Shown here: positions 6,518 to 48,940 of the stretch, piece by piece
Layout of the letters: the number at the start of each line of letters is the position of its first letter
How positions within the stretch are numbered: the first letter of the stretch is position 1
Assembly: GCA_020631395.1 (NCBI GenBank)
Contig: JAHDHI010000001.1
Span: forward strand, 1-64,000
Direction: 5' to 3'
Origin: Bizionia sp.
GTDB taxonomy: Bacteria; Bacteroidota; Bacteroidia; Flavobacteriales; Flavobacteriaceae
DNA length: 64,000 nt
Translations under genes and position numbers: made by a program
Notes under the pieces: model-generated
Seen by the model: the letters and a program-made list of their open reading frames with translations, nothing else
The model's database searches: none
What the model was told of the DNA's origin: nothing

Positions 6518-6567
6518 TTGGGTGTTATTTAAGGGCTAGATGTTAATTTATTTCTTCAACGCGGCGT

Positions 6568-6747: not shown

Positions 6748-6884
6748 GCAACAAATAAAGGGGCTTGCCTTAAAAGGACAAAAAAAGATGGGGGTACACA
6801 TGGGGTGACAACAGGTTAACTCATTGACAATCAATTAAAATAAAACACATTGCAATTGAATAAAATATGAAAAACTGAACGTTC

Positions 6885-12917: not shown

Positions 12918-13240
12918 ACCTAGAAAGCAACACAATGACAATATGCTTCAAACATCTCACTTTCGTGCTGATGTTTTTGGCCTTGGTTACCCCACAATTA
13001 AATGAAACTGTGGCATTCCTTTCGAATTCCAACCACGAATTGACCAAGGCCGAAGGAGAAAAAGGGGCAGACGAAAAAGAAAAGCAAGTAAATGAAGAAG
13101 AGAAGATAGAATTGCAAATCGTTGCCTCCTCCCCTTGCCTCTATTGTTTTGATGATCGCAGTGCTTTGTATGGCCATCTTGCTGCCTTGCACGACAACTT
13201 GTATTCGGAAATCAACATTCCACCACCTGAATTCATTTAA
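12914..13240 (+). CDS. small exported protein of unknown function, translationally coupled to tetR
   Basis: A 108-residue protein whose start overlaps the TetR stop by 4 bp. A hydrophobic segment at residues 11-33 suggests a signal peptide; an alternative start at Met8 (12935) would give a shorter n-region. A very charged Glu/Lys stretch follows (about 45-68), then a short C-terminal part with a CLYC pair (PCLYCFDD) and a PPPEF end. No family is recognised. Being inside the export operon, it may be an accessory periplasmic piece of the pump, perhaps metal- or thiol-dependent because of the CxxC. Confidence 0.55.
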   Translation: MNLESNTMTICFKHLTFVLMFLALVTPQLNETVAFLSNSNHELTKAEGEKGADEKEKQVNEEEKIELQIVASSPCLYCFDDRSALYGHLAALHDNLYSEINIPPPEFI

Positions 13241-13372
13241 AGTGAGGCTCGTGCCTTCACGCCAAACTCACAATTGCAACCCAAACATCTCATCGTTCCA
13301 TAAGGTAGGCATATGCCTCCCCATGGACATCAATGCCCAATTTAATAGAAATCCGACTTTTCGGTCATTACA

Positions 13373-15046
13373 ATGAAAGAAATCACATCCCCTTGGAAAC
13401 GCTTTACAAGCTTGCTCCAATTAGATAGAAAAGACATTCGTCAAATCTTCTACTATGCCATATTCGCTGGCCTCGTGGCCTTGACATTGCCACTTGGAAT
13501 ACAGGCCATCATCAACCTCCTACAAAGTGCTCAAGTCTCCACATCCTGGATAGTACTTGTCGTATTGGTAACTCTTGGTGTTGCCTTTCAAGGCCTATTG
13601 CAATTGATGCAGATACGCATCTTGGAAAATATGCAACAAAAGATATTTACAAGAGCCTCCTTCGAATTTGCCTATCGTTTTCCAAAGATAAAAATAGAAG
13701 AACTACGTAACTACTACCCCCCAGAATTGGCAAATCGCTTCTTCGATGTGCTGACCATCCAAAAAGGATTGCCAAAGATATTGATTGATTTTCCTGCCTC
13801 AGCCTTGCAAATCATATTCGGGCTGATGCTACTCTCATTCTATCACCCATTTTTCATAATCTATGGGTTCTTGCTGGTCTTGCTCATATATATACTATTC
13901 AAATTTACAGCAAAGAAAGGATTAGAAACCAGTCTCGTCGAATCCAAAAACAAATACAAGGTAGCCCATTGGATTCAAGAAATCTCACGCTCACTCATAA
14001 GCTTCAAGCTATCTGGAGCCACAAACTTGGCAATGAAAAGGAACGACGACCTGACGACGAACTACTTGGAAGCTCGTGAAAATCATTTCAAGGTTTTGGT
14101 GTTTCAATTCATTCAGCTCATCGGCTTCAAAGTTTTGGTTACAATGGGACTCCTTATCATTGGCGGTTTGCTCGTGCTTAACCAAAAAATGAACATTGGA
14201 CAATTCGTTGCTGCAGAAATAATCATCCTCTTGGTATTGAGTTCAGTCGAGAAACTCATAAAAGGTCTGGAATCCTTTTATGACGTGTTAACCTCTCTTG
14301 AAAAGATAGGACAGGTGGTAGATAAAAAGTTAGAACCACAGAACGGTGAAGACCCTTTTGAAAATACAACCGAATTACGCATAGAACTCAACAACCTGAA
14401 ATACATCACGCCTGAAGACCAAGAAATATTGAGCAACATCAATTTCAACATAGAAAACAAGGACAGAATACTCTTCGAAGGAGCTTCCGGTTCTGGAAAG
14501 ACGACGGTATTGAAGATAATCTCTGGACTCCTAACGCCCTCCAAAGGTGATTTGTACGTCAACGATGTCTCCATGAAGGGCATCTGGCTCAATGGATATC
14601 GTGCTCATGTGGGGCAAGTACTTCCCTCCCAACTTCCATTTGAGGATACCATACTCGAAAACATAACCTTTGGCAGAAAGGACATCTCGCAAGAGCACCT
14701 TCGTATCGTACTCAAAGAGCTTGGCCTGCTTGCTTTCATTAAGGATCAACCCAACGGAATAAATACGGTACTTTACCCTGAGGGTCAGCAAATTCCGTTT
14801 ACGGTATCCAAACGCATAGTATTGGCCAGGGCCATCATCCACAATCCTAAGTTACTCTTGTTGAAAGATCCATTGGAGCATTTTGAAAAAGAGGAAACTG
14901 AACGAATAATCAAGTATTTGACTGCTCCCGAAAGACCTTGGGCCTTGATAGTCTCCAGTCGAAATGCCTTATGGAGAAACCATTGCAACCAAACCATAGA
15001 AATTATGGGAGGAAGAATAACTTCTAAAGACAAGAACAATGCTTAA
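13373..15046 (+). CDS. ABC exporter (membrane + ATPase domains) with degenerate ATPase motifs
   Basis: A 557-residue half-transporter. Residues 1-330 form the transmembrane domain of about six helices; about 340-557 is the nucleotide-binding domain. Walker A is intact (GASGSGKT, 370-377). The signature position, normally LSGGQ, reads IPFTV (474-478), though the following RIVLARA is kept. Walker B reads LLLLKD (494-499), where the Mg-binding Asp and catalytic Glu should stand. The H-loop position reads SSR (528-530), with no His. Such an ATPase should bind ATP but hydrolyse it poorly. It resembles type I secretion or bacteriocin-type ABC proteins without a peptidase domain. The next gene overlaps by 8 bp. 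Confidence 0.8.
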   Translation: MKEITSPWKRFTSLLQLDRKDIRQIFYYAIFAGLVALTLPLGIQAIINLLQSAQVSTSWIVLVVLVTLGVAFQGLLQLMQIRILENMQQKIFTRASFEFAYRFPKIKIEELRNYYPPELANRFFDVLTIQKGLPKILIDFPASALQIIFGLMLLSFYHPFFIIYGFLLVLLIYILFKFTAKKGLETSLVESKNKYKVAHWIQEISRSLISFKLSGATNLAMKRNDDLTTNYLEARENHFKVLVFQFIQLIGFKVLVTMGLLIIGGLLVLNQKMNIGQFVAAEIIILLVLSSVEKLIKGLESFYDVLTSLEKIGQVVDKKLEPQNGEDPFENTTELRIELNNLKYITPEDQEILSNINFNIENKDRILFEGASGSGKTTVLKIISGLLTPSKGDLYVNDVSMKGIWLNGYRAHVGQVLPSQLPFEDTILENITFGRKDISQEHLRIVLKELGLLAFIKDQPNGINTVLYPEGQQIPFTVSKRIVLARAIIHNPKLLLLKDPLEHFEKEETERIIKYLTAPERPWALIVSSRNALWRNHCNQTIEIMGGRITSKDKNNA

Positions 15047-30582: not shown

Positions 30583-32091
30583 CTAAATTATAGAGGGTTT
30601 ATCCATATAAGTTGCGTTTCCCAATGCATCAATTTTCAAAACATAATATTCCTTAATCGAAGAAGAAGATTCTACGGCTACCAATATGCGTTCACCATCT
30701 GTTCTTACTCTCACCGAGCCATAAACCAATCTGTTAAAAGCGGGAAACCCCTTTTTCAACTTCACCTTCTTGCCATCGTCCTTTACCACTTCCATTGGCC
30801 CCAATACCACTCCCATATATGCAAAGAAGGCAGCCAATTCCGTACAAAAGATCAGTGGCAAATCATTTCTAGAGGCTCTGCCCAATGCTCCCAACAAGTT
30901 GGCACGAGGATGTACGTAGTCCTTCCCTACATTTTCGTCACCAGAAGACACTATGGAGATCACGGGGCTTATTGTTTTGAAAAAATTCAAATGGTATTCA
31001 TGGGATCCATGATGTGGGACCTTCATTATTTCCGACCTGATGTTCACGGCAGCATCTTGTTGAGCATAAGAATGCATCAAATGCTCCGATGCATCAATGT
31101 TCAAATCTCCACCAAAAAAGAAGTTTACATTGTTATAGCTCAACCTTATCGTTACCGAATGCCCATTGACCGTATGCGAAGCCGATTTTGATCCTCTCTC
31201 ATTTCTGTAGTATCTCAATGCATCCTTTCCGTCCAAGGTTTCATTTATTGGTCCCAAAACCTTTATTTTCACCCCATTGTTCTCATGTCTATCAAACTCT
31301 TCATCATCTCCAAACTTCAATCGTCTGACCTTCCCATCTGTGGTCAATAGCTTGTTTATGGCATCGTCCCATTTTTTGAAGGTATTGCTCTTATGTACTG
31401 CATCCCTGGAATCGTTCCAAATTTCCGTAGCATACAATAGTTTTCCTTTGGGCTTCGATGTTCCAAAGGCATTTTTGTATCCTTTCAGTCCTGATTTGAC
31501 TAGTCCATTGTGATATATATTCCTTGCTTTGAAGAAAATACGTTTCCTTTCAGTAGGATGAGTCTCTGTTTCCGGTATTTTAAAAAGTCCCGAAAAATGA
31601 TCTGCATCTCCGTGCGTAACGATTATGGAATCAAAGACCACGGGATTAGTCTTTGTAGTTTTAGGATATAGCGCAGCCAAAATCCTTGAGATGAACTTCC
31701 CTTCTCCTCCATCTATCAGTATTCTTTCTCCAGATGGCAAGCTCACAATGGATGCGTCCCCTTGTTGAACATCCAAAAACAGGACTTGCAATAAATTACC
31801 CTCCCTAAAGCACAAAGGCAAATAACCAATGTTCTTTTTGAATTTCTTGTTAATGTACCCTTCTTCGAATTCTCCAGTACCGTAATTGTAAAATTTGACG
31901 TCTAGTTTTTTACGAGTAGCATCCTCGTTTTGGATATCATCGATCAATTCTACTTCATCCCCCCAAAATAACATTCTCACCGTTTTGTTCTTTTCGGATT
32001 TTTGATGTACTCTATTCCATCTGGTTCCTCTTAACCTTACAATGTACTCGTCCAATATTTTCTTTCCCATCTTGAAATCATTTAAAGTCAT
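30583..32091 (-). CDS. ComEC-like metallo-beta-lactamase-fold hydrolase
   Basis: A 502-residue protein without signal peptide or membrane helices. The first 100 residues have no recognised fold, though they contain WGDEVELIDDI. The MBL core starts at FLDVQQGDASIVSLPSGERI. Metal sites are IVTHGDADHFSG, LIDGGEG and VPHHGSHEYHL, then SSGDENVGKDYVHPR, as in the ComEC/Rec2 C-terminal domain. Stand-alone members act as phosphodiesterases or nucleases. It is last in an operon with an FAD oxidase and a lipoprotein, so a nucleic acid substrate is not assured. Confidence 0.8.
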   Translation of the reverse strand: MTLNDFKMGKKILDEYIVRLRGTRWNRVHQKSEKNKTVRMLFWGDEVELIDDIQNEDATRKKLDVKFYNYGTGEFEEGYINKKFKKNIGYLPLCFREGNLLQVLFLDVQQGDASIVSLPSGERILIDGGEGKFISRILAALYPKTTKTNPVVFDSIIVTHGDADHFSGLFKIPETETHPTERKRIFFKARNIYHNGLVKSGLKGYKNAFGTSKPKGKLLYATEIWNDSRDAVHKSNTFKKWDDAINKLLTTDGKVRRLKFGDDEEFDRHENNGVKIKVLGPINETLDGKDALRYYRNERGSKSASHTVNGHSVTIRLSYNNVNFFFGGDLNIDASEHLMHSYAQQDAAVNIRSEIMKVPHHGSHEYHLNFFKTISPVISIVSSGDENVGKDYVHPRANLLGALGRASRNDLPLIFCTELAAFFAYMGVVLGPMEVVKDDGKKVKLKKGFPAFNRLVYGSVRVRTDGERILVAVESSSSIKEYYVLKIDALGNATYMDKPSII

Positions 32092-32155
32092 TATCCATGT
32101 TATCTATGAGCAAGCATAATTGTTTTTTATTAATTTTCAGTGCAATAAGTACTGC

Positions 32156-33760
32156 CTACAAGGATACTATCCAATCCTCAGTATCTCCCAAATCCTTATC
32201 GGACAACCCAGTGGTTTCCAAAAAATCATTGGAAAAGAGCCTGGCCATGTCATCGGAAAGCAAACCATTGCGATAGTTCTTCCATTCGTTTACCTTGTCG
32301 TCACCAAACATGTGCGTTACCAGGTCAGGAAATGCCCAATCACTTGTTTTCCCCCAATGTATGGTGAAAGGAATGTCGTTCTGTTTCAACGTCTCTATCA
32401 TTCGTCTTGAAAATTCAGTGACGCTCATTATACGCTTCGTCTTCTTCCATAACACACCATCGATCTCTATCATGCAAGTAATCGGAAACTTTGTAAAGGC
32501 CAACGTCGCTTGTGATTTTTTAACGAAGCGCATTGCAAATATGCCTGGAATTGGACCTTCATTCTTCGTAAGACATCCTAAAAGCTTCATGGTTCTTGGC
32601 GCATCTTTGTGATCGACTCCAAAGGAACAAGCAAAAGCTGGACCTTGGTATGGCGCATCCCAGAATATCTCTGGAACAGTTCCTACAAGTTCCTCATCTA
32701 CGGTTGGCAAAATGGTTTTTCTCAAGCGTCTTACCAACCACGGAATGCTCTTTGGAAACTTTTCAGCCATTTTTACAAACAAGTGAATCAAATCACGATA
32801 TAGAGATTCTTTTATTACCGGAAATGGATCTTCATATGGAACTGCATATGCTTTTTTATACATCAACTCCACCACATATTCCGGATCGTCATTGTATTGA
32901 TTTATGAATATCTTGTAATGATATGGTCTATTGGCATTTCCTTGGGCATCGGTTTCCTCAGGAATCTTGAACAGTGAATTTTTGAAGTCCATCGTTTCTG
33001 CCAACTTCAAGGCAATATGCTTGTCTATTTTCTTGACGTACCGCTTCAACAAAAAACGCGGTTCCGACTCGATGACCACGCCATGAATGAATCCAAAAGC
33101 TCCCAAGCCAACCAATGCAGCATTGAAAAGTTCATCGTTTCGAATAACTTTAGCCTTCAACTTAGATGCAAAAGCATTGCTCAAAGCTGGTTTTGTATGA
33201 CGCTCCAAGTAAATGACATCTTCAGGGTTTGGACCGACTATCAGGTTCAAACCTACCACATAATCTTGAACGGAACCGACATCCAATGCAGAACCATGGA
33301 CTCCTGTAGAAATACAACCCGCTATGGTTTGCCCATTGCTTGCTCCTGTCGTTTTCAACGATTTCCCATGTGCAGACAATTGTTTGGACACTTCTTTTAT
33401 GGTGTTTCCACACTCAAACAAGAAGAGATTGGTAGCATCATATGTCGTATCATTGTGGCAATCTCCATCTCCTATTGGCAAATGTATGTTCATAAATCCA
33501 TTGTAGTGCATTCTATCCTTATGATGCGCTATGTTATTCATGGACCATCGAGACCCGTAAGCCCTAAAGCCTTCATTGTCATCAGCAGTTTCTTTTATCA
33601 ATCTCTGAATTTCCCTTGCTGCATCGTTATAACGATCTATTTTATTGGGAATGTTTCCATCGCCTGCCAACTCTGTGACATATAGGGTCTTCAATGGAAA
33701 AGGACCATTGTTGTGCAATGTATCCCACTTTGTCTTTGGATGTGCTATAGTAGTTGCCAT
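32156..33760 (-). CDS. FAD-linked oxidase (PCMH type, aldonolactone oxidase-like)
   Basis: A 534-residue flavoprotein. The PCMH-type FAD-binding part (about 90-260) includes GASNGQTIAGCISTGVHGS and VGLGAFGFIHGVVIES. The His in STGVHGS is where some relatives attach FAD covalently. The C-terminal substrate domain is long and resembles gulonolactone / arabinonolactone oxidases only loosely (IHWGKTSDW near the end resembles their HWGK motif). It has no signal peptide. The lipoprotein ends 7 bp upstream and the MBL gene begins 64 bp downstream. Substrate unknown: a sugar lactone or another alcohol is possible. Confidence 0.8.
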   Translation of the reverse strand: MATTIAHPKTKWDTLHNNGPFPLKTLYVTELAGDGNIPNKIDRYNDAAREIQRLIKETADDNEGFRAYGSRWSMNNIAHHKDRMHYNGFMNIHLPIGDGDCHNDTTYDATNLFLFECGNTIKEVSKQLSAHGKSLKTTGASNGQTIAGCISTGVHGSALDVGSVQDYVVGLNLIVGPNPEDVIYLERHTKPALSNAFASKLKAKVIRNDELFNAALVGLGAFGFIHGVVIESEPRFLLKRYVKKIDKHIALKLAETMDFKNSLFKIPEETDAQGNANRPYHYKIFINQYNDDPEYVVELMYKKAYAVPYEDPFPVIKESLYRDLIHLFVKMAEKFPKSIPWLVRRLRKTILPTVDEELVGTVPEIFWDAPYQGPAFACSFGVDHKDAPRTMKLLGCLTKNEGPIPGIFAMRFVKKSQATLAFTKFPITCMIEIDGVLWKKTKRIMSVTEFSRRMIETLKQNDIPFTIHWGKTSDWAFPDLVTHMFGDDKVNEWKNYRNGLLSDDMARLFSNDFLETTGLSDKDLGDTEDWIVSL

Positions 33761-39490: not shown

Positions 39491-39510
39491 ATAGATTATC
39501 CCCATAATTG

Positions 39511-39548
39511 AAATGCCGCTCTTTTAAAATTTAAAAGAACGGCATTTT
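39511..39548. terminator. bidirectional terminator between converging operons
   Basis: AAATGCCG and CTCTTTTAAA pair with TTTAAAAGAACGGCATTT in a long, nearly perfect hairpin flanked by A/T runs on both sides. It lies between the M28 peptidase (plus) and the cupin gene (minus), so it can end both the peptidase transcript and the 11-gene minus-strand operon. Confidence 0.8.
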
Positions 39549-39574
39549 TATTGATAAACTAAAAGGAATGTACA

Positions 39575-40021
39575 CTAGTATGTTCCTTCTTCCAATACCT
39601 CGTGTCCGTATTTCTTGGAATAGGCTTGGATTTCTTCAAAATCATCTTGTGACAACTCCGTCAACTTATCAAAGAAATCATAGGTTCCAGAAGGAGTAAA
39701 CGTTCCAATCAATCGTCCTTCCTTGGTCCCAACGTTTGTAAATTTGTGAGCTACGCCTCTAGGGATGTAAAGAAATGTTCCCGGAGGTGCTTCAGATTCG
39801 GTTTCATCGACTTGAAATGTAAAGTCTCCTTCCAAGACATGTAGGCTCTCGTCATTTTTATGATGGATGTGCAATGGTGCTCCTTGTCCTGCTGGTACCA
39901 CCAATTCAAAATAATCCAGCAAATCGCCAGTTGTATTCTTATAAGTACGATAAATGGCATCAAAACCTGTTATTTTCGTTTTTTGACCTTCATTAGGTTT
40001 GCGTAACATTGTTTCACTCAT
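39575..40021 (-). CDS. cupin domain protein
   Basis: A 148-residue single-domain cupin without signal peptide. Motif 1 reads PLHIHHKNDESLHVLEGDF (two His and a Glu as metal ligands) and motif 2 reads PPGTFLYIPRGVAHKF (last His). Such proteins are often small dioxygenases, isomerases or binding proteins on metal centres. It is the last gene of the long minus-strand operon, 28 bp after an SRPBCC gene. Its substrate is presumably a product of the oxidoreductases upstream; this is an inference. Confidence 0.85.
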   Translation of the reverse strand: MSETMLRKPNEGQKTKITGFDAIYRTYKNTTGDLLDYFELVVPAGQGAPLHIHHKNDESLHVLEGDFTFQVDETESEAPPGTFLYIPRGVAHKFTNVGTKEGRLIGTFTPSGTYDFFDKLTELSQDDFEEIQAYSKKYGHEVLEEGTY

Positions 40022-40049
40022 GGTTTTTATATTTTAGATTGTTATTAGA

Positions 40050-40493
40050 TTATTTCAATGGAAAGCGCTTCAGCAATTCGTCAAAACCTCTTTGATAGAA
40101 TTCCGAAATTGCGTCTTCCTTGTAATAGAACGTGGCAACCCATTGTACTATGCTCGTCCCTCCCTTAAGGTCGAATACTCGCAAGTCCGAATAGTATTTG
40201 TGAATCGCTTCTCCCCATTCTCCCCAGTGCCATTTGTAACGGTAATGGAAATCGTCATTATCCATCATGACCAATTCTTCGATTGCCTTGGGTTGGCCAG
40301 GAAAAGTAAGAAGCCTTCTCATTTGGCGAGTTTTCGTTTGATCGTCGATAACCTCCAGTTCCGTAATGTCCGGATGCCATTCGTGAATCGTATAGAAACC
40401 TCCGATGACTTCCCATACTTCTTCTGCCGTAGCCCCAACCTCTATGGATTGGACCACTCTCCAGTCTTTGTACCCTTGTTCTTGTTCTGTCAT
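40050..40493 (-). CDS. SRPBCC (polyketide cyclase-like) protein, copy 1
   Basis: A 147-residue START-like domain beginning KDWRVVQSIEVGATAEEVWE, with the motif FYTIHEWHPDI and later YKWHWGEWGEAIHKYYSDLR. The fold makes a deep hydrophobic pocket for lipids, polyketides or aromatics. A close paralogue is encoded at 43209-43673 in the same operon. The gene lies 28 bp from its neighbours on each side. Confidence 0.8.
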   Translation of the reverse strand: MTEQEQGYKDWRVVQSIEVGATAEEVWEVIGGFYTIHEWHPDITELEVIDDQTKTRQMRRLLTFPGQPKAIEELVMMDNDDFHYRYKWHWGEWGEAIHKYYSDLRVFDLKGGTSIVQWVATFYYKEDAISEFYQRGFDELLKRFPLK

Positions 40494-40521
40494 AATAATT
40501 GATTTTTTAAGTTTTAAAGTG

Positions 40522-42012
40522 TTAAGAATGATTTATGTTGAATTTCTTGCAAAAGGAAATGCTTGGTGCAAAAAAGTATTCGCCTCCACGTATCTTCACC
40601 AAATTCTGATATTTGAAATCGATGGAAACTTCCTTTCCATCCATTTGAAGCTGCCATTTTTTTGCTGCTTTCCCGTCTCCGGCATTCTGTTCTCCTGTTA
40701 TTGGATCCGTACCAGTTCCCTCAACGACGAAGTTTGGATTGTCGGACCAACCACATTGCATTACTAAAAATTGTTGTTCTATGTCGCTTTGACAAGAAAG
40801 AAAGAGCAGCCCTGCATCCGTCCATTCGGAGGATGGATTCAAATCCTTGGAACCATAACTTATTCCTCTACGGGCTATTCGATGACTTCGCTCGCTTCGC
40901 ATTGGAATTTTGTTTTTTCTATTGGTATCTCCCCTTGGATTCGTCTTTCGGATATGAGATTGAAATGGGCATCCCAAACCTTCCACATCCTCATCGTAAT
41001 TGAAATTATTCAAAGGTTTTGCTGTTTTGTTCGGATTCGTGGTTACCAAAGTCCCATCTTTAAACCTACCAAATGCAAGGGCACCAGCCAATTCTTGATC
41101 GACCTCACGCCCAACTTCCTTTGAAATCAATGCTCCAAATTGCTTTGTCTGATCATTGAACCCCTTTATGTTTTGTTGCATCTTGCGATATACGTAATAA
41201 GATCCAAAACTAGTTTCGGTGGAACTACCACCCGGATCATTGACCGCAATCAATCCAAAAGGTGCGGATGGATCATAGTATTCGGTTCCTTCCTTTTCTT
41301 CCCAGCGTTGAAAATCGGCTTTAAAGAACACAGGGTTGCTAATTCCATCTTCAAACCCAAAATGTTCTATGACATTTCCTTTTTCATTTCTAAGAGTGTA
41401 GCCTTTTTCAACGGATAGAATGGTGGCAACTCCTTCAACCTCTTCCTTGATTCTTTCCAATTCTTCGTTTAAATGGTCTTCACATGTTGTGGGATCCAAA
41501 CTTTCGCCTCCATAGGCGAGTATTGCCAAAGCATCAATATTTTCTTTGAATGGCTCTTCCCAATTTTCAGGATTGTCATTTAAGGGATTGATAGTGCGTT
41601 TATGGACTCCTCCTGGTCCTGTGTCATATCTGAATTCAATGTTTTTCATACCAGCTCGAAAAGCTTTGTCATCGGGGATCTCCTCATCGTCTATTCCTAG
41701 CGCTTGAAACCCCGAATAACTTAGCATTAGACCTGTAAACAGATGCTCTTGTCCTGATTCCTTGAAATCCAGTGCGGTTTGATGCTGCTCGAAAGCAGAA
41801 GTCAATCGTGACGAAATCTTTCCTATCCATTCTCTACTTTTGTCAGAATCCTCACTTGTAAATTGCAAGAACAAATGCAAAGAGTGGGAACGCCCATGAC
41901 TTTTTAGGATATTGCCCTGCAAATCTTCGAAAACGACACGTAAATCTGGATCATTGACATCCAGTTTTGATTGACTCAATTTAATGGTGGATCGGTTTGA
42001 ATCTGTACCCAT
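40522..42012 (-). CDS. Dyp-type peroxidase
   Basis: About 496 residues from MGTDSNRSTIKLSQS at 42012; a longer frame reaches 42120, but its extra part (MYDFALSKSSFHSCKEKC) does not look conserved. The GxxDG motif is GFEDGISNP, and the heme-pocket region follows (FGRFKDGTLV, then PRGDTN and RSHRIARRGISYG with a probable heme-ligand His). DyP peroxidases oxidise dyes, phenols and some lipids with peroxide. No Tat or Sec signal and no encapsulin-targeting tail were seen, so it should act in the cytoplasm, with peroxide perhaps from the GMC oxidase of this operon. Confidence 0.88.
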   Translation of the reverse strand: MGTDSNRSTIKLSQSKLDVNDPDLRVVFEDLQGNILKSHGRSHSLHLFLQFTSEDSDKSREWIGKISSRLTSAFEQHQTALDFKESGQEHLFTGLMLSYSGFQALGIDDEEIPDDKAFRAGMKNIEFRYDTGPGGVHKRTINPLNDNPENWEEPFKENIDALAILAYGGESLDPTTCEDHLNEELERIKEEVEGVATILSVEKGYTLRNEKGNVIEHFGFEDGISNPVFFKADFQRWEEKEGTEYYDPSAPFGLIAVNDPGGSSTETSFGSYYVYRKMQQNIKGFNDQTKQFGALISKEVGREVDQELAGALAFGRFKDGTLVTTNPNKTAKPLNNFNYDEDVEGLGCPFQSHIRKTNPRGDTNRKNKIPMRSERSHRIARRGISYGSKDLNPSSEWTDAGLLFLSCQSDIEQQFLVMQCGWSDNPNFVVEGTGTDPITGEQNAGDGKAAKKWQLQMDGKEVSIDFKYQNLVKIRGGEYFFAPSISFCKKFNINHS

Positions 42013-42146
42013 ATTTAGTTCTTGATTGTTTTTATAATTAGTCCTCTTGAAGACATAAATACCATAACATTTTTCTTTACATGAGTGAAAACTGCTTTTA
42101 GAAAGTGCAAAATCATACATTGCTGTTTTCTAACCATATAGATGAT

Positions 42147-42743
42147 TCATGATAGTGCATCCAATTTTACCTTGTGCATGTAGTCGTAAACTTTTTTCAA
42201 TTCCATCACTTTGACAAATCCTGCAATTAAAAAGCATGCCAAAGGGATGTAATCGTTGATAAACATCAAGGAAAGACCTAATATGTGAATGCTAAAAAAA
42301 AGAAAGTTCTTTCCATTTTTTGTTAAATGCTCGCTCACTTTCGATGTCTTACCATGAAGGTTTATAATGTTCTTCTTTAAAATGAGAAAGGAAATCTCAC
42401 TCATCAACAAAACAATACCATATAGTGCAACAGGAATGTCGTCAATATGATTGTCTCCTATCCATGACGTCGTAAAGGGAATTAGGGACAACCAAAACAA
42501 CAAATTCAAATTGGCCCATAGAATCGCCCCATCTATCTTGTCTGCTATTTTGAACAACTGGTGATGGTGGTTCCAATAAACGCCTATGTATAAAAAACTC
42601 ACTATGTAGCTAATAAATACAGGGAACATTTCATACAATGCATCTAGTGTTGTTTCATGTGGCGGCTCCAACTCCAAAACCATGACCGTAATGATTATGG
42701 CAAGAACACCATCACTAAAAGCTTCTAATCTTTCAGATGTCAT
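42147..42743 (-). CDS. TMEM175-like potassium channel family protein (DUF1211)
   Basis: A 198-residue membrane protein of six helices. The family signature RLEAFSDGVLAIIITVMVLE opens the protein (R-x3-FSD), and helix 3 has YWNHHHQLF. Bacterial relatives form tetrameric K+-selective channels. Finding one inside an operon of peroxidase, SRPBCC and ferritin-like genes is unusual. It follows the gene at 42792 by about 48 bp. Confidence 0.85.
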   Translation of the reverse strand: MTSERLEAFSDGVLAIIITVMVLELEPPHETTLDALYEMFPVFISYIVSFLYIGVYWNHHHQLFKIADKIDGAILWANLNLLFWLSLIPFTTSWIGDNHIDDIPVALYGIVLLMSEISFLILKKNIINLHGKTSKVSEHLTKNGKNFLFFSIHILGLSLMFINDYIPLACFLIAGFVKVMELKKVYDYMHKVKLDALS

Positions 42744-42791
42744 CTCTCTTTATGTATAAAGCTAATAATACTGATTCTTGAGAAAGAATGT

Positions 42792-43193
42792 CTATTTGAA
42801 ATAGTTTCTATCGTCTGGTGCTTCGTTCAATGTGAATGTATGCTGGTATTCAGGATCATACACATTCAATATGGTATATGTTCCCGATGTTTTCCATGAG
42901 TCACCATCCCAAGTTCCATCAGGATTCAATTGTTTTTCTATTTTTTGAGATTGAATCAATACTCGTCCCCAGAACAGCCATTTCCCATCGATGTTATGTA
43001 CATAATATACTCTAACTGGGTCGATTTGAAAGATTCTTGCACTAGGTTTGTCTTTGAATTCAAAGACCTTTCCTTCAACGTCTTTAAGAGTCACAGGATT
43101 TTTTCTGTGCTTTTCCAAGTCAAAAATATCAACAGGAAACCCTTGTTCCTCCGTTAATTGCAATGTGTCGTTGATTTCTACGTAACTTCCCAT
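42792..43193 (-). CDS. hypothetical protein of the oxidoreductase operon
   Basis: A 133-residue cytoplasmic-looking protein with no signal or helix-spanning segment. Repeated short beta strands are suggested (KVFEFKDKPSARIFQ, VRVYYVHNIDGKWLFWGRVL, GTYTILNVYDPEYQHTFTL). Trp and Tyr are common, so a small beta barrel with a ligand pocket is possible. No family is recognised. It sits 15 bp after the second SRPBCC gene, in step with the operon. Confidence 0.65.
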   Translation of the reverse strand: MGSYVEINDTLQLTEEQGFPVDIFDLEKHRKNPVTLKDVEGKVFEFKDKPSARIFQIDPVRVYYVHNIDGKWLFWGRVLIQSQKIEKQLNPDGTWDGDSWKTSGTYTILNVYDPEYQHTFTLNEAPDDRNYFK

Positions 43194-43208
43194 TTTTTTT
43201 ATAAGTTT

Positions 43209-43673
43209 TTAATTGTTAATTAATTTTCCGCCAAACATTTTTACCAAATTCTCAAGTCCGTTTTTATAGAACTGAGTCAAGCCATCTTCAGAATAATAGA
43301 AAGATGAAGACCATTGCACCAAGCAACGTTTGTCCAGTTCCAACTCCACTACCTGAATTTGAGAGTGGTATTTTTGTATTACCTCACCCCATTCTCCTTT
43401 GTGCCATTTGTATTTATAACGCATGTTTTCGTTATCCATGAAAACAAGTTCCTCATATGTCGGTTCTTGTCTTGGGAATGTCAGTTTGCGTCTGATGTCT
43501 CTTTCCTCTACTTGCTCCTCTGGCACTTCAGAAATGTCAATGTCTGGATGCCATTGGTCGATATTGTAAAAACCACCAACCAAATGCCATACTTTTGCTG
43601 CAGGTGCATTTAATTCGCAAACGACAACCACACGCCAATCCTTGTAATCCCTTGTATCTATTTTCATGTCCAA
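43209..43673 (-). CDS. SRPBCC (polyketide cyclase-like) protein, copy 2
   Basis: A 154-residue START-like protein that can be aligned along its whole length with the one at 40050-40493: KDWRVVVVCELNAPAAKVWH, FYNIDQWHPDI, KLTFPRQEP, YKWHKGEWGEVIQKYHSQ. The two keep the same pocket motifs but differ in their C-termini, so they may handle two related molecules or form a heterodimer. The ferritin-like gene ends 5 bp before its start, indicating tight coupling. Confidence 0.8.
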   Translation of the reverse strand: MDMKIDTRDYKDWRVVVVCELNAPAAKVWHLVGGFYNIDQWHPDIDISEVPEEQVEERDIRRKLTFPRQEPTYEELVFMDNENMRYKYKWHKGEWGEVIQKYHSQIQVVELELDKRCLVQWSSSFYYSEDGLTQFYKNGLENLVKMFGGKLINN

Positions 43674-43678
43674 ATTGA

Positions 43679-44818
43679 TTAAAGCATTCTAAAACAAGGT
43701 CCGTAGTGCAATCCTTCTTCACTATTTGGAATAGGTGTCTTTATGAGAGGGAGCGCGTAGCGCTCAAGCTTAAACATGACTTCAATTGCATTTACCAAAG
43801 CTGCTTGTCCTCTTCCATCAATTGCCCAAGCATCTTGAAGCAACTTCACCAAGTCGGTATAGGCCTTGTCAAATTCATAAATCAAATGCCAAACCTCTGG
43901 AGCTACTTCTGATTTTTGATAGCCTCCTTCAGGAATTCTTGCCATGTTGTAAATTTCTGGGCGAGGCATGGGATCTTTAAAGTAATACTTGTCTCCTTCT
44001 TCAACTATTTTTTTCTGATAGAATACTTCCCAAAAACGGTAAAAGTGTGCAAGGTTGTCCATTCCTGTACTTGCAGGAGTTACGTTTTCCGATCCCTCTC
44101 CTTGTTCCTTAATCATGTCGATGGCTTTGGAAACACTATCTGCATCAGACATAACCCACCATGACAAGGGACCAGCCAATTGACGTTCTACATTCATTTT
44201 TGGTTGCAACTCTTGGAACAACTCGTTGATCCTATCGTACAATTCACCAATGGTGGTATTGTGTTCATGACTTTGAACATGTTTTTTTTCACCAATGTTC
44301 CCTTCTTTGTCACAAAGGCCACCAAGAGTTACCAATTCTTTGGTTTCATAATCATAGATTTCAGCGATTTCCTCAGGCAATTCTATTTCAATGAAATTTC
44401 GAAGAGAGCAATCGTTTAATCCTTCCAAATACAAGAAAAGCTCTGGATGTACACCTCCAGGAAGCCCAGAAGGGAATTTCAAACCGTTTTCGGGGTCGTA
44501 TATTTTGGGTTCCCCTCCTATTCCGGCAATCATGTTGCAAACCATTGCCATATGCAACATTTCTTCTTGAAATATGTTGCGAATGGATTTTGCCACCTCG
44601 CAATTGTTGTCTTTTATGCTCCACATAGCTTGCAAGTATATGGGGATGGTCGCAAACTCCAATACTACAGCACTATTCAATAACTCTTTTAGTACGTGCA
44701 ATTTATCGTCGTCTTCATCTTGTACCGATTTCGAATGTTGAATTAATTCGTGTACATTATCTATTTTTGATGCTTTTTCTTGAAAGGCATTTTTAAATTG
44801 TATCGCTTTTGTGGACAT
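43679..44818 (-). CDS. ferritin-like protein of the VioB (iminophenyl-pyruvate dimer synthase) type
   Basis: A 379-residue protein with the ferritin-like domain that VioB and RebD share. Helix 1 has LLNSAVVLEFATIPIYLQAM, helix 2 has IFQEEMLHMAMVCNMI (ExxH) and a third block has IEIELPEEIAEIYDYETKEL. VioB itself is about three times longer; free-standing domains like this one are common in bacteria, and their reaction is not known. A di-iron or heme site would fit. It is followed by an SRPBCC gene and preceded by a GMC oxidoreductase, so an oxidised small molecule is the likely theme. Confidence 0.8.
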   Translation of the reverse strand: MSTKAIQFKNAFQEKASKIDNVHELIQHSKSVQDEDDDKLHVLKELLNSAVVLEFATIPIYLQAMWSIKDNNCEVAKSIRNIFQEEMLHMAMVCNMIAGIGGEPKIYDPENGLKFPSGLPGGVHPELFLYLEGLNDCSLRNFIEIELPEEIAEIYDYETKELVTLGGLCDKEGNIGEKKHVQSHEHNTTIGELYDRINELFQELQPKMNVERQLAGPLSWWVMSDADSVSKAIDMIKEQGEGSENVTPASTGMDNLAHFYRFWEVFYQKKIVEEGDKYYFKDPMPRPEIYNMARIPEGGYQKSEVAPEVWHLIYEFDKAYTDLVKLLQDAWAIDGRGQAALVNAIEVMFKLERYALPLIKTPIPNSEEGLHYGPCFRML

Positions 44819-44836
44819 TCTTCAAGTTCTTTTTTA

Positions 44837-46432
44837 TTAGTTTTTTTCAATTAGATGCTCTACCAGCCTAAAAGCCATTGCTGTAAGCGTAAGGGTAGGA
44901 TTTACTGCACTTCCAGTAGGAAAGGCAGCATTGGAACATACATATAGGTTATTGGTTTCATGCACTTTCATATACTTGTCGGTCACACTGTTTTCTGGAC
45001 TCGTTCCCATGCGGGCAGTCCCAGTTGTGTGGTGTCCTCCTGGTTTGTCAACACGGGAAGATGTTACTTCCAAGCCCATCTTTTCGATGATTTGCTCCAA
45101 TAGCTTCAAACGATCGTTGGCATTTTTCATTTCTTCATCTGTTCTACTAAAATGCACGGTCGTTTGAGGCAATCCAAAACGATCTACCCCTGGCTTTGAC
45201 TCCAATCGGTTACTGTATTTTCCTTTTTCTTCCAAAAAGGCTTGAATGTTAACCGTCATTTCTCCATAGACGATTTCGTCGATTTCTTCCCTCGTTTTTC
45301 CCTCTATCATCAATTTAGCAATATCGGTATTGGGGGTCGTACGGTTTTTGAACATGAATATCTTCCCTTTCTTTTGATGCTCTTTCGTGTTGTAGCTATG
45401 GGACATCAAAGTTGGAAAATCGTATTCTTGAAACCATCCATTTGGATTTGACTTTGCCTTGCCCACCACATTCAACATGGAGTGCGATACCACGAAACGT
45501 CCAACCAAATCATTGTCGTTGCCAATGCCATCTTTCCAATGTTTGCTTTTAGATGCCCTCAATAGCTTGGGAACGTTGTATGCACCCGAAGCCAATATCA
45601 CGGTATCACCACAAACGGTATGTTCTTCCCCTGTCAAGTTATCCGTATAGGTAACGGAATCCATGTTTGCTTTGCTTTCTGCATTCACCTTGTGAACTGG
45701 AGAATTCACACGGACTTCAAAATTGACGAATCTTACATCACCCTTCAAATCATCCAATACGTACTGCGCATTGAAACGTCCTCCGATGGGACAGTATTTG
45801 CAGGTACCCGTAGTCATGCATTTTCGGTAGCGTGCAATGGGCATCTTTCCTGATTTTATCTTGCTTTTCGTGCCTGGATCCATGTCACCATCTTGATAGA
45901 CCACATCCAATTGTTCCCAAGCCTCGATCATTTCTCCATCGGCAGCCGTCCATTGGAAAGGCGGTACCGAATATGGTTTCGACCTAGGAATCCAATTGGC
46001 ATCGTTGTCCCCACAAACCGATAGATAAGCTTCGGCATCGTTGTAATATTTTTCCAAATCTTCGTAATCGATCGGCCAATCTGCTCCTTCCCCCGTATTG
46101 GTGAATAGGTTGAAGTCTTCAGGTCTGAAACGCAAACACCACGCTCCCCAATGCATCGTAGAGCCTCCATAGGCCTTGACACGTACTCCATCCGTCTGAT
46201 AGTCTATGTTACCCGTCGAATCTGCTTCCCATTTTTGATCGTAGGTAAACGTATAAGGTCGTTCTCCACGTGTAATGTAATCCCACCAAAAACGCCTGTC
46301 TTTCGCAACAATTTCTGGACCTGCTTCCAATATCAATATGGAAGTATCATTTTTATGTTCCAACAAACCTTTGGCAATTGTGGCTGCGGCAACTCCACCT
46401 CCAACAATTACATAGTCAAATTGTTTTTTCAT
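44837..46432 (-). CDS. GMC family FAD oxidoreductase
   Basis: A 531-residue flavoprotein. The FAD dinucleotide-binding site is at the N-terminus (YVIVGGGVAAATIAKGLLEH, then LILEAG). GMC motifs include MHWGAWCLRF near residue 95. The catalytic end is GGHHTTGTARMG, then SNAAFPTGSAVNPTLTLTAM with His and Asn. The central part has a CMTTGTCKYCPIGGRF segment with four Cys, reminiscent of glucose/fructose dehydrogenase-like members. Relatives oxidise alcohols or sugars. The previous gene overlaps its start by 4 bp and probably encodes its partner subunit. Confidence 0.9.
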   Translation of the reverse strand: MKKQFDYVIVGGGVAAATIAKGLLEHKNDTSILILEAGPEIVAKDRRFWWDYITRGERPYTFTYDQKWEADSTGNIDYQTDGVRVKAYGGSTMHWGAWCLRFRPEDFNLFTNTGEGADWPIDYEDLEKYYNDAEAYLSVCGDNDANWIPRSKPYSVPPFQWTAADGEMIEAWEQLDVVYQDGDMDPGTKSKIKSGKMPIARYRKCMTTGTCKYCPIGGRFNAQYVLDDLKGDVRFVNFEVRVNSPVHKVNAESKANMDSVTYTDNLTGEEHTVCGDTVILASGAYNVPKLLRASKSKHWKDGIGNDNDLVGRFVVSHSMLNVVGKAKSNPNGWFQEYDFPTLMSHSYNTKEHQKKGKIFMFKNRTTPNTDIAKLMIEGKTREEIDEIVYGEMTVNIQAFLEEKGKYSNRLESKPGVDRFGLPQTTVHFSRTDEEMKNANDRLKLLEQIIEKMGLEVTSSRVDKPGGHHTTGTARMGTSPENSVTDKYMKVHETNNLYVCSNAAFPTGSAVNPTLTLTAMAFRLVEHLIEKN

Positions 46433-46968
46433 GTGTTGTCATTTTTTAAGTTATCGGTATCTGGTTCATAGGCACGTACCCTGGAAAGACGGTTATAGCG
46501 TGTCCCTCCCAAGAAACCGTGATAGTTCTTTGCTTGTTCGCCTCCATTTTTTGTTCCCCAGCTTTTAAATCCACCAGCAGTAATTTGCATTCGGATAAAT
46601 TCATTGACCACGTATATCTTACAGTGTGCCAATCTAGTGGTAGGTGGAGCATCATTGTCGATGCCGCTTTCAAAGAACAATTTTTTAAAAGCATCTTCCT
46701 TACCGTACATTTCATACAATTCATTCAAAACATAAATTGCATTTACATATTCACCTGCATAATTGGGTGCGTTTTCAGTTTTCGCCTTCAGCATTTCATA
46801 CCATGAGCTTCTTTGGTTGTTCGAATTGTAAATTGTATTGGACCAATTCTTACCAATGGCTTCAAATATGTCCCAAAGCGCTTCTTTGTTTTGGTGCGTA
46901 AGGTGTTGACCTTCGGCAAAGATCAATCCTGCCGAAAGTTTTTCATTACAGACAGAGCCTCCTATCAT
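46429..46968 (-). CDS. probable small subunit of the GMC oxidoreductase
   Basis: A 179-residue mainly helical protein overlapping the GMC start by 4 bp. Membrane-bound GMC dehydrogenases (gluconate, fructose, glucose types) have a small helical subunit encoded directly before the flavin subunit; this protein has the right size and place. No Tat or Sec signal is visible, although the first residues (MIGGSVCNEKLSAGLIFAEG) are odd. Recognisable pieces are YVNAIYVLNELYEMYGKEDA and GFLGGTRYNRLSRVRAYEPD. The role is inferred from position, not from a clear family match. Confidence 0.55.
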   Translation of the reverse strand: MIGGSVCNEKLSAGLIFAEGQHLTHQNKEALWDIFEAIGKNWSNTIYNSNNQRSSWYEMLKAKTENAPNYAGEYVNAIYVLNELYEMYGKEDAFKKLFFESGIDNDAPPTTRLAHCKIYVVNEFIRMQITAGGFKSWGTKNGGEQAKNYHGFLGGTRYNRLSRVRAYEPDTDNLKNDNT

Positions 46969-47008
46969 AATAAATAAAGTGTTTTAATTAGTAATCGTTG
47001 ATTTTATC

Positions 47009-48622
47009 TTATCGGAATAATTCGCGTTCCCTTAAATGCAATGTTCCTGCTTTGAAATACACGTCGGTCCAAGAATCGTCTGTTGCCAAAAAATCACTAA
47101 ACACGACATTGTCTTCTTCTATGCCATGATTCTTCATGTAATCCCTAAACTCAAAATGATTGAAAAGGCGTGAGAACTCGGTGAGATACACATCTACCAC
47201 CCCTTTGTCTCCTCGAATGATTACCATGTTCTCATCATTGTTCTTGGTAGAGGCCGTAGAGAAGTTTGCCGACCCTGTAATCAATGTAGGATCATCGGTT
47301 AGCGGATCTATGAACAAATACTTAGTATGGAGGTATTTTACATGCTCGTTCAAGCCTGTTAGATGTTCTGCTTCCCACCCAGTAAGATGTTCTTCCTTTA
47401 TTTCATCTTCAGTCAATGTGGCCCCCAATGCAATTTTATTGTTTGGGGTATCTTTGAATACATCAAAGGTATTTCCTTCATGCTCCAACAAGATGTACCT
47501 AAAAGAGTCATTATCCACGCTCATGATATCGGCAAAATCCTGATTTACACCAAAAGCAGCTGTAAATCCTATGGATTTCTTGGCTTCTTCTATTTGCTTT
47601 CCATACCATTCCAAAGCGCCTAAATCTGGCCTTGGGCTAAAAATTGGAGTAATTCCCTTTTTCACCTCTCCTTCCGGCGTCGGGGAATATTCTTGGTTCA
47701 AGGGACGTATCTCCTTCATTGTGGGATTTGCGGACAAACGTGTCCAATATTGAAAATAATCTTGGGCAACGACTATGTCCCTAACGATGTGCCCCACGTT
47801 GGACTGTCCAAAAATGCCTCCTTTGGTGAAATTGGTAGAACCAGTCCAAACCTCTATTGGTTTACCCTTGTAAAGCAGAACGATGTACTTGTTATGTTTG
47901 ATTGAAGAGTTTGAAGATCTAGGAATCATCAATTTTTCAATGCCAGGAACATTTGCAATGGCTTTATCCGTATTTTCCCACGGCCCCCTATTTGATCTAT
48001 CATATATGATTTTAACATCTGCCCCAGTCAAGGAAGCATCGTACAAAGCCTGAATGACAGGAACATAATCAAACTCGTATGCCGCAACGCGCAATCCGAA
48101 GTCTTCGCCTTTGGCTTGAGCTATGAAGGCTAGCATAGCCTCTTCCAAACCTCTCGACAACCATTTGTAGGCTTCGTTGTTGGGTACCAAATCAGGGTTT
48201 TTGTTGTTAAACTTCCTAGCGTAGGCTTGCCCTACGGATCCTCTATTGAAAAACACTCCATGGGTCCCCGAATTTGGATCTTCTGTAGAAATCGCAACAG
48301 TCACGACATCTCCATATCTCATGTTATCTTGTGTTCCATAGACTGGCGTAGCAGAATATTCGTATTTAGTATTGGGAGTCGCTTGGTAATCCCCCCATAG
48401 AAATGCTTGGATTAAGTTTGCATTGCTTTCCTTTCCTTTTTTTTCAAATTCTTTCAATCCCTTAAGGTCTAGGACTTCTCCGGATGAGACGTCTCTACGT
48501 TTGAAATGGAAACCCAACAATTCCTTTCTAGCGTTTTGGTCTACATCCAAACAAAGGAGGGAAATGTGAGTTCCTGTTATTACGTGTAATGAAACACCAT
48601 TTACTTGATTTCTTAATCTCAT
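47009..48622 (-). CDS. phospholipase D-like (HKD) protein
   Basis: A 537-residue protein with two PLD-type halves. The first catalytic motif is KHNKYIVLLYKG (about 245-256), followed by VWTGSTNFTKGG; the usual Asp after HxKx4 is a Leu. The second is YLHTKYLFIDPL with a complete HxKx4D, followed by ITGSANFSTAST. Relatives cut or transfer phosphodiesters in lipids or nucleic acids. It lacks a signal peptide and lies second in the operon, 40 bp before the GMC small subunit gene. Whether it acts on lipids here is open. Confidence 0.85.
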   Translation of the reverse strand: MRLRNQVNGVSLHVITGTHISLLCLDVDQNARKELLGFHFKRRDVSSGEVLDLKGLKEFEKKGKESNANLIQAFLWGDYQATPNTKYEYSATPVYGTQDNMRYGDVVTVAISTEDPNSGTHGVFFNRGSVGQAYARKFNNKNPDLVPNNEAYKWLSRGLEEAMLAFIAQAKGEDFGLRVAAYEFDYVPVIQALYDASLTGADVKIIYDRSNRGPWENTDKAIANVPGIEKLMIPRSSNSSIKHNKYIVLLYKGKPIEVWTGSTNFTKGGIFGQSNVGHIVRDIVVAQDYFQYWTRLSANPTMKEIRPLNQEYSPTPEGEVKKGITPIFSPRPDLGALEWYGKQIEEAKKSIGFTAAFGVNQDFADIMSVDNDSFRYILLEHEGNTFDVFKDTPNNKIALGATLTEDEIKEEHLTGWEAEHLTGLNEHVKYLHTKYLFIDPLTDDPTLITGSANFSTASTKNNDENMVIIRGDKGVVDVYLTEFSRLFNHFEFRDYMKNHGIEEDNVVFSDFLATDDSWTDVYFKAGTLHLRERELFR

Positions 48623-48675
48623 TGGTTATGGTTTTAAATTGGTTAAGGGTAACGATTTTTGTTGTAGTAGGTATT

Positions 48676-48882
48676 CTATTGTTGTTGCAGTTCTTCTTTG
48701 TATAAAAATCCAGAGTTAGATGAAGATTTTGAATGCTTATCGAAAATTAGGAAGAAAGCGATGCTTTTTCCATTGTTTCCTTCAATCGACAATGATAGTT
48801 CCTGCTCTTGTTGACCTTTTAAATCTTGAGTAGATTTTCTTGACAATCCAAAGTTTTTGACCCTAATTTTGTTTGTATACAT
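48676..48882 (-). CDS. small hypothetical protein leading the oxidoreductase operon
   Basis: A 68-residue protein with no signal peptide or membrane helix. It is rich in Ser, Gln and Lys (STQDLKGQQEQELSLSIEGN, then SIAFFLIFDKHSKSSSN). The spacing to the PLD gene (53 bp) and a promoter directly upstream suggest it opens the operon. No family is recognised. Confidence 0.5.
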   Translation of the reverse strand: MYTNKIRVKNFGLSRKSTQDLKGQQEQELSLSIEGNNGKSIAFFLIFDKHSKSSSNSGFLYKEELQQQ

Positions 48883-48909: not shown

Positions 48910-48940
48910 CAAATCAGCTTGGATTTCATTGAAGTCCAAA
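48910..48940 (-). promoter_or_regulatory. probable promoter of the 11-gene operon
   Basis: On the minus strand TTTG (48940-48937) is followed after exactly 19 bp by CTGATTTG (48917-48910), a -7 box with the TTTG intact but CT in place of TA. Transcription would begin near 48904 and leave a leader of about 22 nt. It fits the Bacteroidota TTTG-N19-TAnnTTTG consensus except for those two bases. Confidence 0.45.

Follow-up and report, generated by a model that had tools for sequence, protein, structure and literature searches.

Ferritin-like proteins with the PF12902 domain are widespread, yet the roles met for them in the literature searched lie in bisindole synthesis. Here we report the analysis of a ten-gene operon of Bizionia sp. 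in which the gene for such a protein (FER) directly follows the gene for a flavoprotein (GMC) of the glucose dehydrogenase/fructose dehydrogenase (GDH/FDH) type. The operon lies within the first 64,000 nucleotides of contig JAHDHI010000001.1 (GenBank assembly GCA_020631395.1), and this whole stretch is called the window. Our analysis suggests, with a probability of about 0.42, that the operon encodes a cytoplasmic dehydrogenase using the ferritin-like protein as its redox partner.

Closest described systems

In the glucose dehydrogenase of Burkholderia cepacia, flavin adenine dinucleotide (FAD) is attached to His105, Cys212, Cys218 and Cys222 hold a 3Fe-4S cluster, and this cluster carries electrons from FAD to a partner subunit (PMC6719666, excerpt). 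Comparison with the FAD-dependent glucose, fructose, sorbitol and gluconate dehydrogenase complexes (PDB 6a2u, 7w2j) revealed the same catalytic subunit family, FAD-linking histidine, three Fe-S cysteines and His/Asn pair in the window, with a small gene just upstream. The window differs in that the operon has no cytochrome c gene, no obvious export signal was seen, a ferritin-like gene comes next, the small protein (U179) showed no relation in sequence tests and the cysteines are spaced x5-x2 instead of x5-x3. Because the cytochrome and export features are lacking, the catalytic subunit is counted as a GDH/FDH member and the complex as defined is not.

VioB has a large N-terminal part and a tryptophan-oxidase partner. 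VioB, RebD and StaD share with the window the PF12902 domain and a flavoenzyme partner; FER differs in being short, with little besides PF12902, its partner is a GMC protein and not an amine oxidase, and tryptophan-pathway genes are absent from the operon. Pfam analysis found neither an amine oxidase nor any other pointer to indole pigments among the ten genes. RebO and RebD together convert tryptophan to chromopyrrolic acid (PMC10784701, excerpt). In assays, redox systems such as ferredoxin plus ferredoxin reductase were added to Dob3, a ferritin-like diiron oxidase that belongs to a different family (PMC13061610, excerpt). Among the open-access papers listed, none describes a GMC-ferritin-like pair, as judged by titles, abstract openings or excerpts.

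The U179-GMC-FER module

The operon consists of ten consecutive minus-strand open reading frames (ORFs) at 39575-48622, in the order PLD, U179, GMC, FER, SRP1, U133, TM175, DYP, SRP2 and CUP. The family names proposed in an earlier reading made from the sequence alone (the sequence-only reading) were borne out by Pfam (PLDc_2, GMC_oxred_C, PF12902, Polyketide_cyc2 twice, TMEM175, Dyp_perox_C and Cupin_2), which puts a name on eight of the ten proteins. The remaining two, U179 and U133, have no match above cut-off in Pfam or NCBIfam. The genes at the centre are as follows.

46429..46968, minus strand: U179, 179 residues, in the small-subunit position; no significant Pfam or NCBIfam match
44837..46432, minus strand: GMC, GDH/FDH-type flavoprotein, 531 residues; PDB 6a2u 5e-70, 7w2j 4e-62
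43679..44818, minus strand: FER, VioB-type ferritin-like protein, 379 residues; PF12902 155.5 bits (cut-off 22.3) at residues 47-266

An hmmsearch of the PDB with GMC placed FAD-glucose dehydrogenase 6a2u first (positions 2-530 of 534), followed by fructose dehydrogenase 7w2j, with pyranose oxidase far behind (1e-23). Pyranose oxidase, the best NCBIfam match and far under its cut-off, was dropped as an identity after this comparison favoured GDH/FDH. Alignment of eight FER-linked and three other GMC proteins showed H94, C205/C211/C214, H468 and N511 to be invariant in all 11. H94 occupies the position of His105, and C205, C211 and C214 those of Cys212, Cys218 and Cys222, of the B. cepacia enzyme; H468 and N511 correspond to the catalytic His/Asn pair. 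On these residues, GMC is predicted to carry covalent FAD and a 3Fe-4S cluster. The GDH/FDH type and the three Fe-S-type cysteines make an electron-passing dehydrogenase likelier than a peroxide-supplying oxidase, so the sequence-only suggestion that GMC yields peroxide has lost ground.

Six annotated plasmid-borne relatives of GMC were compared. In all four bacterial ones a small subunit precedes GMC and a cytochrome c gene is present, after GMC in three and before the small subunit in one; in the two archaeal ones a small subunit is present, but the stretch contains no cytochrome annotation. Two chromosomal Bacteroidota relatives agree with this by eye: downstream of GMC, L106 encodes a protein with multiple CxxCH motifs, and upstream of GMC, L107 has a small gene whose product begins in a twin-arginine-like way. 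In the window FER is next, 18 bp on, instead of cytochrome c, and no cytochrome family was found by Pfam among the ten operon genes.

FER matched PDB 3hl1 (4e-13), and E54, E86, H89, E146, E241 and H258 were invariant in 10 of 10 aligned proteins, as expected for a diiron site, which these six residues would putatively form. Only TM175 among the ten proteins looks exported or membrane-bound (by eye, with a crude hydropathy check of nine N-termini). Since none of the others does, the core is probably cytoplasmic, and a cytochrome in the periplasm would then be out of reach as electron acceptor. A crude check of the first 40 residues of U179 found neither a twin arginine (RR) nor a strong hydrophobic stretch. 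Across small proteins of such triads, RR is absent from the first 40 residues in 14 of 15 (L028 has one), versus its presence in five of six known small subunits.

Proposed mechanism

We propose a cytoplasmic oxidation cassette centred on the three-gene module U179-GMC-FER. GMC would oxidise an alcohol or sugar-like substrate, with FER replacing the usual cytochrome c as its redox partner; electrons would pass from FAD through the 3Fe-4S cluster to the ferritin iron site, which would activate O2 or peroxide on a second substrate. A hydrophobic product may be bound or shaped by the SRPBCC proteins, either SRP1 or else SRP2 together with DyP and cupin, and PLD, U133 and the TMEM175 channel would be constant accessories. 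The data show the gene order and its conservation, the families of GMC and FER, the conserved cofactor residues, the recurrent pairing, the tree tests against a single origin and the alternation of SRP1 and SRP2; which cofactors are bound, whether a complex forms, which way electrons flow, what the substrates are and the cytoplasmic location are inferred. Oxidation of a small molecule or lipid, the idea of the sequence-only reading, would agree with this scheme. As a suggestion only, PLD may release an alcohol for GMC, with which a PF04185 phosphoesterase gene after FER in L045, a locus from a same-genus genome, fits.

By analogy with Dob3, the dehydrogenase of the window could take the role of the added redox system. 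A further-reaching form of the proposal is a 'self-fuelled' diiron enzyme, in which a cytoplasmic sugar/alcohol dehydrogenase of GDH/FDH type passes electrons directly from FAD through its own 3Fe-4S cluster to a ferritin-like diiron centre, so that O2 activation would need no NAD(P)H, ferredoxin or cytochrome; the coupling would have been assembled independently more than once, and one genome would encode it as a single ferritin-flavin-Rieske chain. This form is considered doubtful. Repeated pairing with an Fe-S sugar-dehydrogenase-type flavoprotein offers a concrete redox partner for PF12902 proteins, and diiron oxygenases might thereby be found to have a further source of electrons.

Recurrence and origin of the GMC-FER pairing

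The sequence-only reading had proposed that its families should be sought as neighbours in other genomes. GMC and PF12902 genes were indeed found as neighbours in other Bacteroidota and on alphaproteobacterial plasmids, and the core set recurs in 12 of 12 long orthologous loci. A complete lack of co-occurrence, which that reading named as its refutation, was thus not seen. Relatives of U179 occur in four of 72,556 plasmid records, and the three opened (two Rhizobium, one Methylorubrum) have the order U-GMC-PF12902; among the matches listed (60 of the 135 GMC plasmid records), those four alone exceed 300 bits, the next having 210. The FER of the window is matched by 164 plasmid records. The alphaproteobacterial triads lie on plasmids near genes for TIR (L028), SIR2 (L029), VapC (L029, L030) and S8 peptidase (L028, L030) proteins, and both Rhizobium triads are preceded by a protein with a CxxCH motif.

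The order small protein-GMC-FER was also found in the Bacteroidota loci L045 (its genome lying outside our draw of 395 Bacteroidota genomes), L046 and L053. As a group, the small proteins of these three loci resemble known small subunits (hhalign E 1e-6); singly, those of L046 and L053 match and that of L045 does not, the L046 protein matching PF12318 at 1.3e-4, just under the cut-off. L056 has GMC and FER without the small gene, with an animal-type haem peroxidase (PF03098, 5e-25) alongside at 3775-5310.

Analysis of the 395 Bacteroidota genomes identified 15 PF12902 loci above cut-off, two of 17 places being left out as under it. GMC stands directly upstream in four (window, L046, L053, L056), and MNIO/DUF2063-type neighbours are found in eight; of the rest, one belongs to an ebo-type cluster, one is an FAD-Rieske fusion and one is without an assigned partner. 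The GMC alignment has at least 224 matches in 188 Bacteroidota genomes. With the window left out, the chance of three GMC-PF12902 adjacencies in 14 is about 1e-8 if 3,800 genes per genome are assumed, and 3e-6 with eight GMC genes in every genome. In the GMC tree the window and the rhizobial proteins form one group and L045, L046, L053 and L056 another. The approximately unbiased test rejects a single clade both for the 10 FER-linked GMC proteins (p 8e-4) and for the FER proteins of the six window- and rhizobial-type triads (p 1.7e-4); the FER tree used omits three long rows (L063 of MNIO type, L056 of GMC-FER type and the L059 fusion) as well as L058, L060, L062 and L064. Because the trees reject one clade, the pairing seems to have formed, or to have swapped partners, more than once.

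Several results weigh against a dehydrogenase with FER as its redox partner. The VioA-VioB type of precedent is one of product transfer, not electron transfer. U179 could not be recognised as a known small subunit: its three profile comparisons with known small subunits or the small proteins of other triads were negative (hhalign 0.24, 0.02 and 0.086), none of the 12 family members has a significant Pfam match, and the PDB search gave nothing better than E 0.7. AlphaFold2 models of U179 and U133 are poor, with predicted local distance difference test (pLDDT) values of 48 and 57, and the GMC cysteines stand one residue closer together than those of B. cepacia glucose dehydrogenase. In 11 of the 15 PF12902 loci no GMC lies upstream, and most GMC relatives cannot be FER-linked, since their matches so outnumber the PF12902 loci. 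The pairing is not obligatory, since no FER gene lies within 5 kb of the L105 GMC (5976-7634), which is 38% identical to that of the window. Elsewhere in the genome of the window, at L104 6642-8443 (G000:C20), a second small-subunit-like gene is followed by a truncated GMC frame of the other type (432 residues), with no FER. The trees are small (16 to 26 rows) with long branches, and the tested groups had been seen beforehand. The L105 GMC is preceded by a 403-residue protein and followed by a 131-residue protein.

Other settings of PF12902 proteins

Nature has joined ferritin-like, flavin and iron-sulphur parts in another Bacteroidota genome, where one continuous ORF of 1080 residues (L059, 7077-10316) contains PF12902, an FAD amine oxidase and a Rieske [2Fe-2S] domain. 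It resembles the window in bringing the three together and differs in having another flavin family, another cluster type and one chain. None of the 10 plasmid records matched by the fusion covers 80% of it.

The main rival to electron transfer from GMC to FER is a hand-over of product as in VioA/VioB and RebO/RebD. GMC would make a reactive carbonyl, which FER would couple or oxidise without any passage of electrons, and DyP would use the peroxide. PF12902 is the VioB-type family, and the joint route of RebO and RebD from tryptophan to chromopyrrolic acid offers a model. Fungal ferritin-like genes adjoin lodA-like oxidase genes (PMC4417212, excerpt), and peroxidases stand beside GMC-FER in two unrelated contexts (DyP, and PF03098 in L056). 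Such a hand-over agrees poorly with a GMC protein of the Fe-S dehydrogenase type, which is not an amine oxidase and whose 3Fe-4S cluster, in the described enzyme, passes electrons to a partner subunit. Moreover, the DyP orthologue is missing from six of 13 carrier genomes, and peroxide use by DyP is therefore not part of the core. Taken together, we regard product hand-over as rather unlikely.

PF12902 genes also have MNIO (MbnB/TglH/ChrH) and DUF2063-type genes as neighbours in L049, L054, L055, L057, L058, L060, L061, L063 and L064, these assignments being made by Pfam in L057 and by eye elsewhere. Such loci mostly have a Cys-rich peptide, and L049 and L061 have THAP4-like haem-binding proteins, under cut-off; the setting resembles that of ribosomally synthesised and post-translationally modified peptides. 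In L027, L047 and L052 a protein of about 590-660 residues is followed by the PF12902 gene and an ebo-type cluster, which is annotated as such in L027 and was recognised by eye in L047 and L052; L048 has the PF12902 gene after such a protein with no ebo genes nearby. The protein of about 590-660 residues resembles the N-terminal part of VioB.

Distribution and conservation of the cassette

One scan of 84,980 species genomes for orthologous loci revealed 13 further loci, in Flavivirga, Tenacibaculum, Kordia, Bizionia and other Flavobacteriaceae. In the 12 long loci the core PLD-U179-GMC-FER-U133-TM175 is complete and in that order, with TM175 last. The remaining locus, L010, lies on a short contig that opens at FER and contains FER, U133, TM175, DYP, SRP2 and CUP. 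Identity to the window is 86-90% for GMC, 77-85% for FER, 81-89% for U133, 77-90% for U179, 70-78% for PLD and 57-75% for TM175. By this comparison PLD, U179, GMC, FER, U133 and the channel make up a core, whereas SRP1 or, alternatively, DyP-SRP2-cupin is a part that can be replaced. Several loci carry inserted genes between FER and TM175; in L017 the inserts at 11174-11737 and 12940-13455 encode an Lcl_C-domain protein and a DUF6265 protein, and the first has a similar one in another locus.

Three Tenacibaculum loci have flanks in common, and five Flavivirga-type loci agree in a different set; L019 and L021 have one flanking gene in common, and the window, L018 and L020 share no flanking gene at the thresholds used. 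As the flanks fall into different settings, the cassette sits at several genomic sites with its inner order kept. The cassette is rare: out of 397 family genomes five have a FER orthologue, counting that of the window, and the U179 profile matched only the window itself across the 395 genomes of the phylum. The cassette is accessory and probably horizontally shared. A single IMG/VR scan with the GMC alignment found no relative, and a viral origin was set aside.

The genes could also form an operon of convenience, in which independently acting enzymes are merely co-inherited. The separability of DyP, SRP2 and cupin and the extra genes inserted in several loci are in keeping with this, but the core order is kept in all 12 long loci across several genomic settings, GMC-FER pairing is found in separate GMC clades, and SRP1 and SRP2 alternate (below). 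Mere co-inheritance is quite improbable.

A system against phages or competitors, with oxidative chemistry and with PLD and the channel as effectors, would account for the patchy distribution and for the rhizobial and Methylorubrum triads on plasmids near TIR, SIR2 and VapC genes. Against it, a PADLOC scan of eight of the ten window proteins matched PLD only (DrmC 2.9e-9, ZacB 6.6e-8), with FER marginal, and the flanks printed for flavobacterial loci resemble housekeeping genes by eye. The PADLOC result gave nothing specific for a known defence system, which was rejected on this set of proteins, and a defence role is scarcely credible.

The DyP-SRP2-cupin module and SRPBCC alternation

The remaining enzymes and binding proteins of the operon are the following.

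43209..43673, minus strand: SRP1, SRPBCC protein (Polyketide_cyc2), 154 residues; PF10604 6.6e-14
40522..42120, minus strand: DYP, dye-decolorizing peroxidase (module B); PDB 5c2i 8e-96; ORF opens at 42120, inner ATG at 42012
40050..40493, minus strand: SRP2, SRPBCC protein (module B), 147 residues; PF10604 4.7e-17
39575..40021, minus strand: CUP, cupin (module B), 148 residues; PF07883 1.4e-14

DYP scored above the cut-off for Dyp_perox_C (25.7 bits, cut-off 20) and below those for DyP_N (25.9, cut-off 27.5) and NCBIfam TIGR01413 (97.5, cut-off 100.5). A GxxDG motif and a conserved H.RKTNPR are present in six of six proteins; GxxDG and the haem-site histidine are DyP motifs. The protein is of the same sequence family as DyP peroxidases such as Anabaena Alr1585 (5c2i), with the same GxxDG motif, and differs in sitting with SRPBCC and cupin genes, with no encapsulin among the operon genes scanned.

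DyP, SRP2 and cupin adjoin the core in four of 13 loci. In whole genomes, the DyP orthologue is present in seven of 13 carriers, with SRP2 alongside in all seven; in three of these (the genomes of L012, L013 and L015) the two lie on a different contig from the core. Cupin orthologues (76-88%) follow SRP2 in the five places examined (L010, L011, L014, L022 and L033), of which one is not adjacent to the core. The pair DyP-SRP2, joined by cupin in the places examined, is thus a detachable module. In the draw of 397 family genomes the DyP orthologue was found in the window's genome and in G021 (the genome of L012), both core carriers, and is missing from three of the five core carriers; the next match is far weaker (166 versus 927 bits).

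SRP1 and SRP2 are paralogues with 51% identity. SRP1 is present in seven of the 13 orthologue genomes, and all 13 have SRP1 or SRP2, one having both and none neither. This alternation gave a Fisher p of 0.004, or 0.009 with the window, which has both; as the genomes are related, these values overstate the association. Because each genome has one or the other, an SRPBCC function looks necessary, with either paralogue sufficing.

Stress defence or detoxification is another explanation, in which FER is a rubrerythrin-like protein that consumes peroxide or oxidises iron, fed by the dehydrogenase, with DyP as a second peroxide sink and with PLD and the channel serving membrane repair or ion balance. 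Ferritin-like and DyP families are both present, the distribution is accessory (the five of 397 genomes above), and a rubrerythrin-like ferriperoxin is reported to take part in a system against oxidative stress (PMC3317640, excerpt). The inconstancy of DyP, the absence of a regulator or catalase among the ten genes and the fact that SRPBCC and cupin are left unexplained make this explanation improbable.

Operon boundaries and neighbouring features

The run of minus-strand genes with short gaps seen in the sequence-only reading was confirmed; from PLD to CUP the gaps are 40, -4, 18, 5, 15, 48, 26, 28 and 28 bp, the -4 corresponding to the ATGA overlap noted there, between U179 and GMC. A gap of about 130 bp holds if DYP begins at the inner ATG (134 bp after TM175) and does not if the ORF opening is used (26 bp). 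Both DYP starts are plausible, since orthologues align from residues 24-42 on and the inner ATG is residue 37. Of the eleven genes counted earlier, ten are supported. The first ORF was rejected: it gave no tblastn match at 1e-3 in orthologous loci, and in all 12 of them inspection by eye of the 330 bp preceding PLD showed no counterpart.

48676..48882, minus strand: ORF of 68 residues, not supported as a gene
39506..39552: hairpin, probable terminator, 23-nt arms at 39506-39528 and 39530-39552, folding z -6.4

The terminator placed at 39511 coincides with this strong hairpin, which a simple terminator scan did not list; the hairpin is common to the end of the operon and to a convergent M28 peptidase gene ending at 39490. 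The candidate promoter at 48910-48940 gained no support, as sigma-70-like sites are at chance level (24 found, 26.9 in shuffles) and neither the window nor 11 of 12 orthologues has the Bacteroidota -7 motif ahead of PLD. The GC content of the operon (0.402) is just above that of all 110 sampled 9-kb windows of the 64 kb (maximum 0.401; some overlap the operon), a weak hint. A tandem minus-strand pair at 30583-33760, a metallo-beta-lactamase-fold protein and an FAD-linked oxidase, lies outside the conserved cassette; it was tried as part of the system and rejected, with no match in the 12 long loci.

PLD, U133 and TM175

The accessory genes of the core are listed below.

47009..48622, minus strand: PLD, PLD-like protein, 537 residues; PF13091 6e-20; orthologues 70-78% identical in 12 of 12 long loci
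42792..43193, minus strand: U133, 133 residues; in 13 of 13 loci, 81-89% identical across genera
42147..42743, minus strand: TM175, TMEM175-type cation channel, 198 residues; PF06736 107.4 bits (cut-off 25); PDB 6w8n, 5vre

In PLD the first HxK motif lacks the Asp and the second is complete, a pattern found in 13 of 13 proteins and in Methylorubrum, where the gene after the triad encodes a PLD protein with 23% identity to that of the window. A fold search of the PDB with the U133 model (the pLDDT of 57 given above) found no match at E<=0.001. TM175 has at residue 5 the RxxxFSD motif of TMEM175 channels and is present in 13 of 13 loci with variable position. In L012 (11913-12501) its frame is split into two overlapping frames, the other core genes being open.

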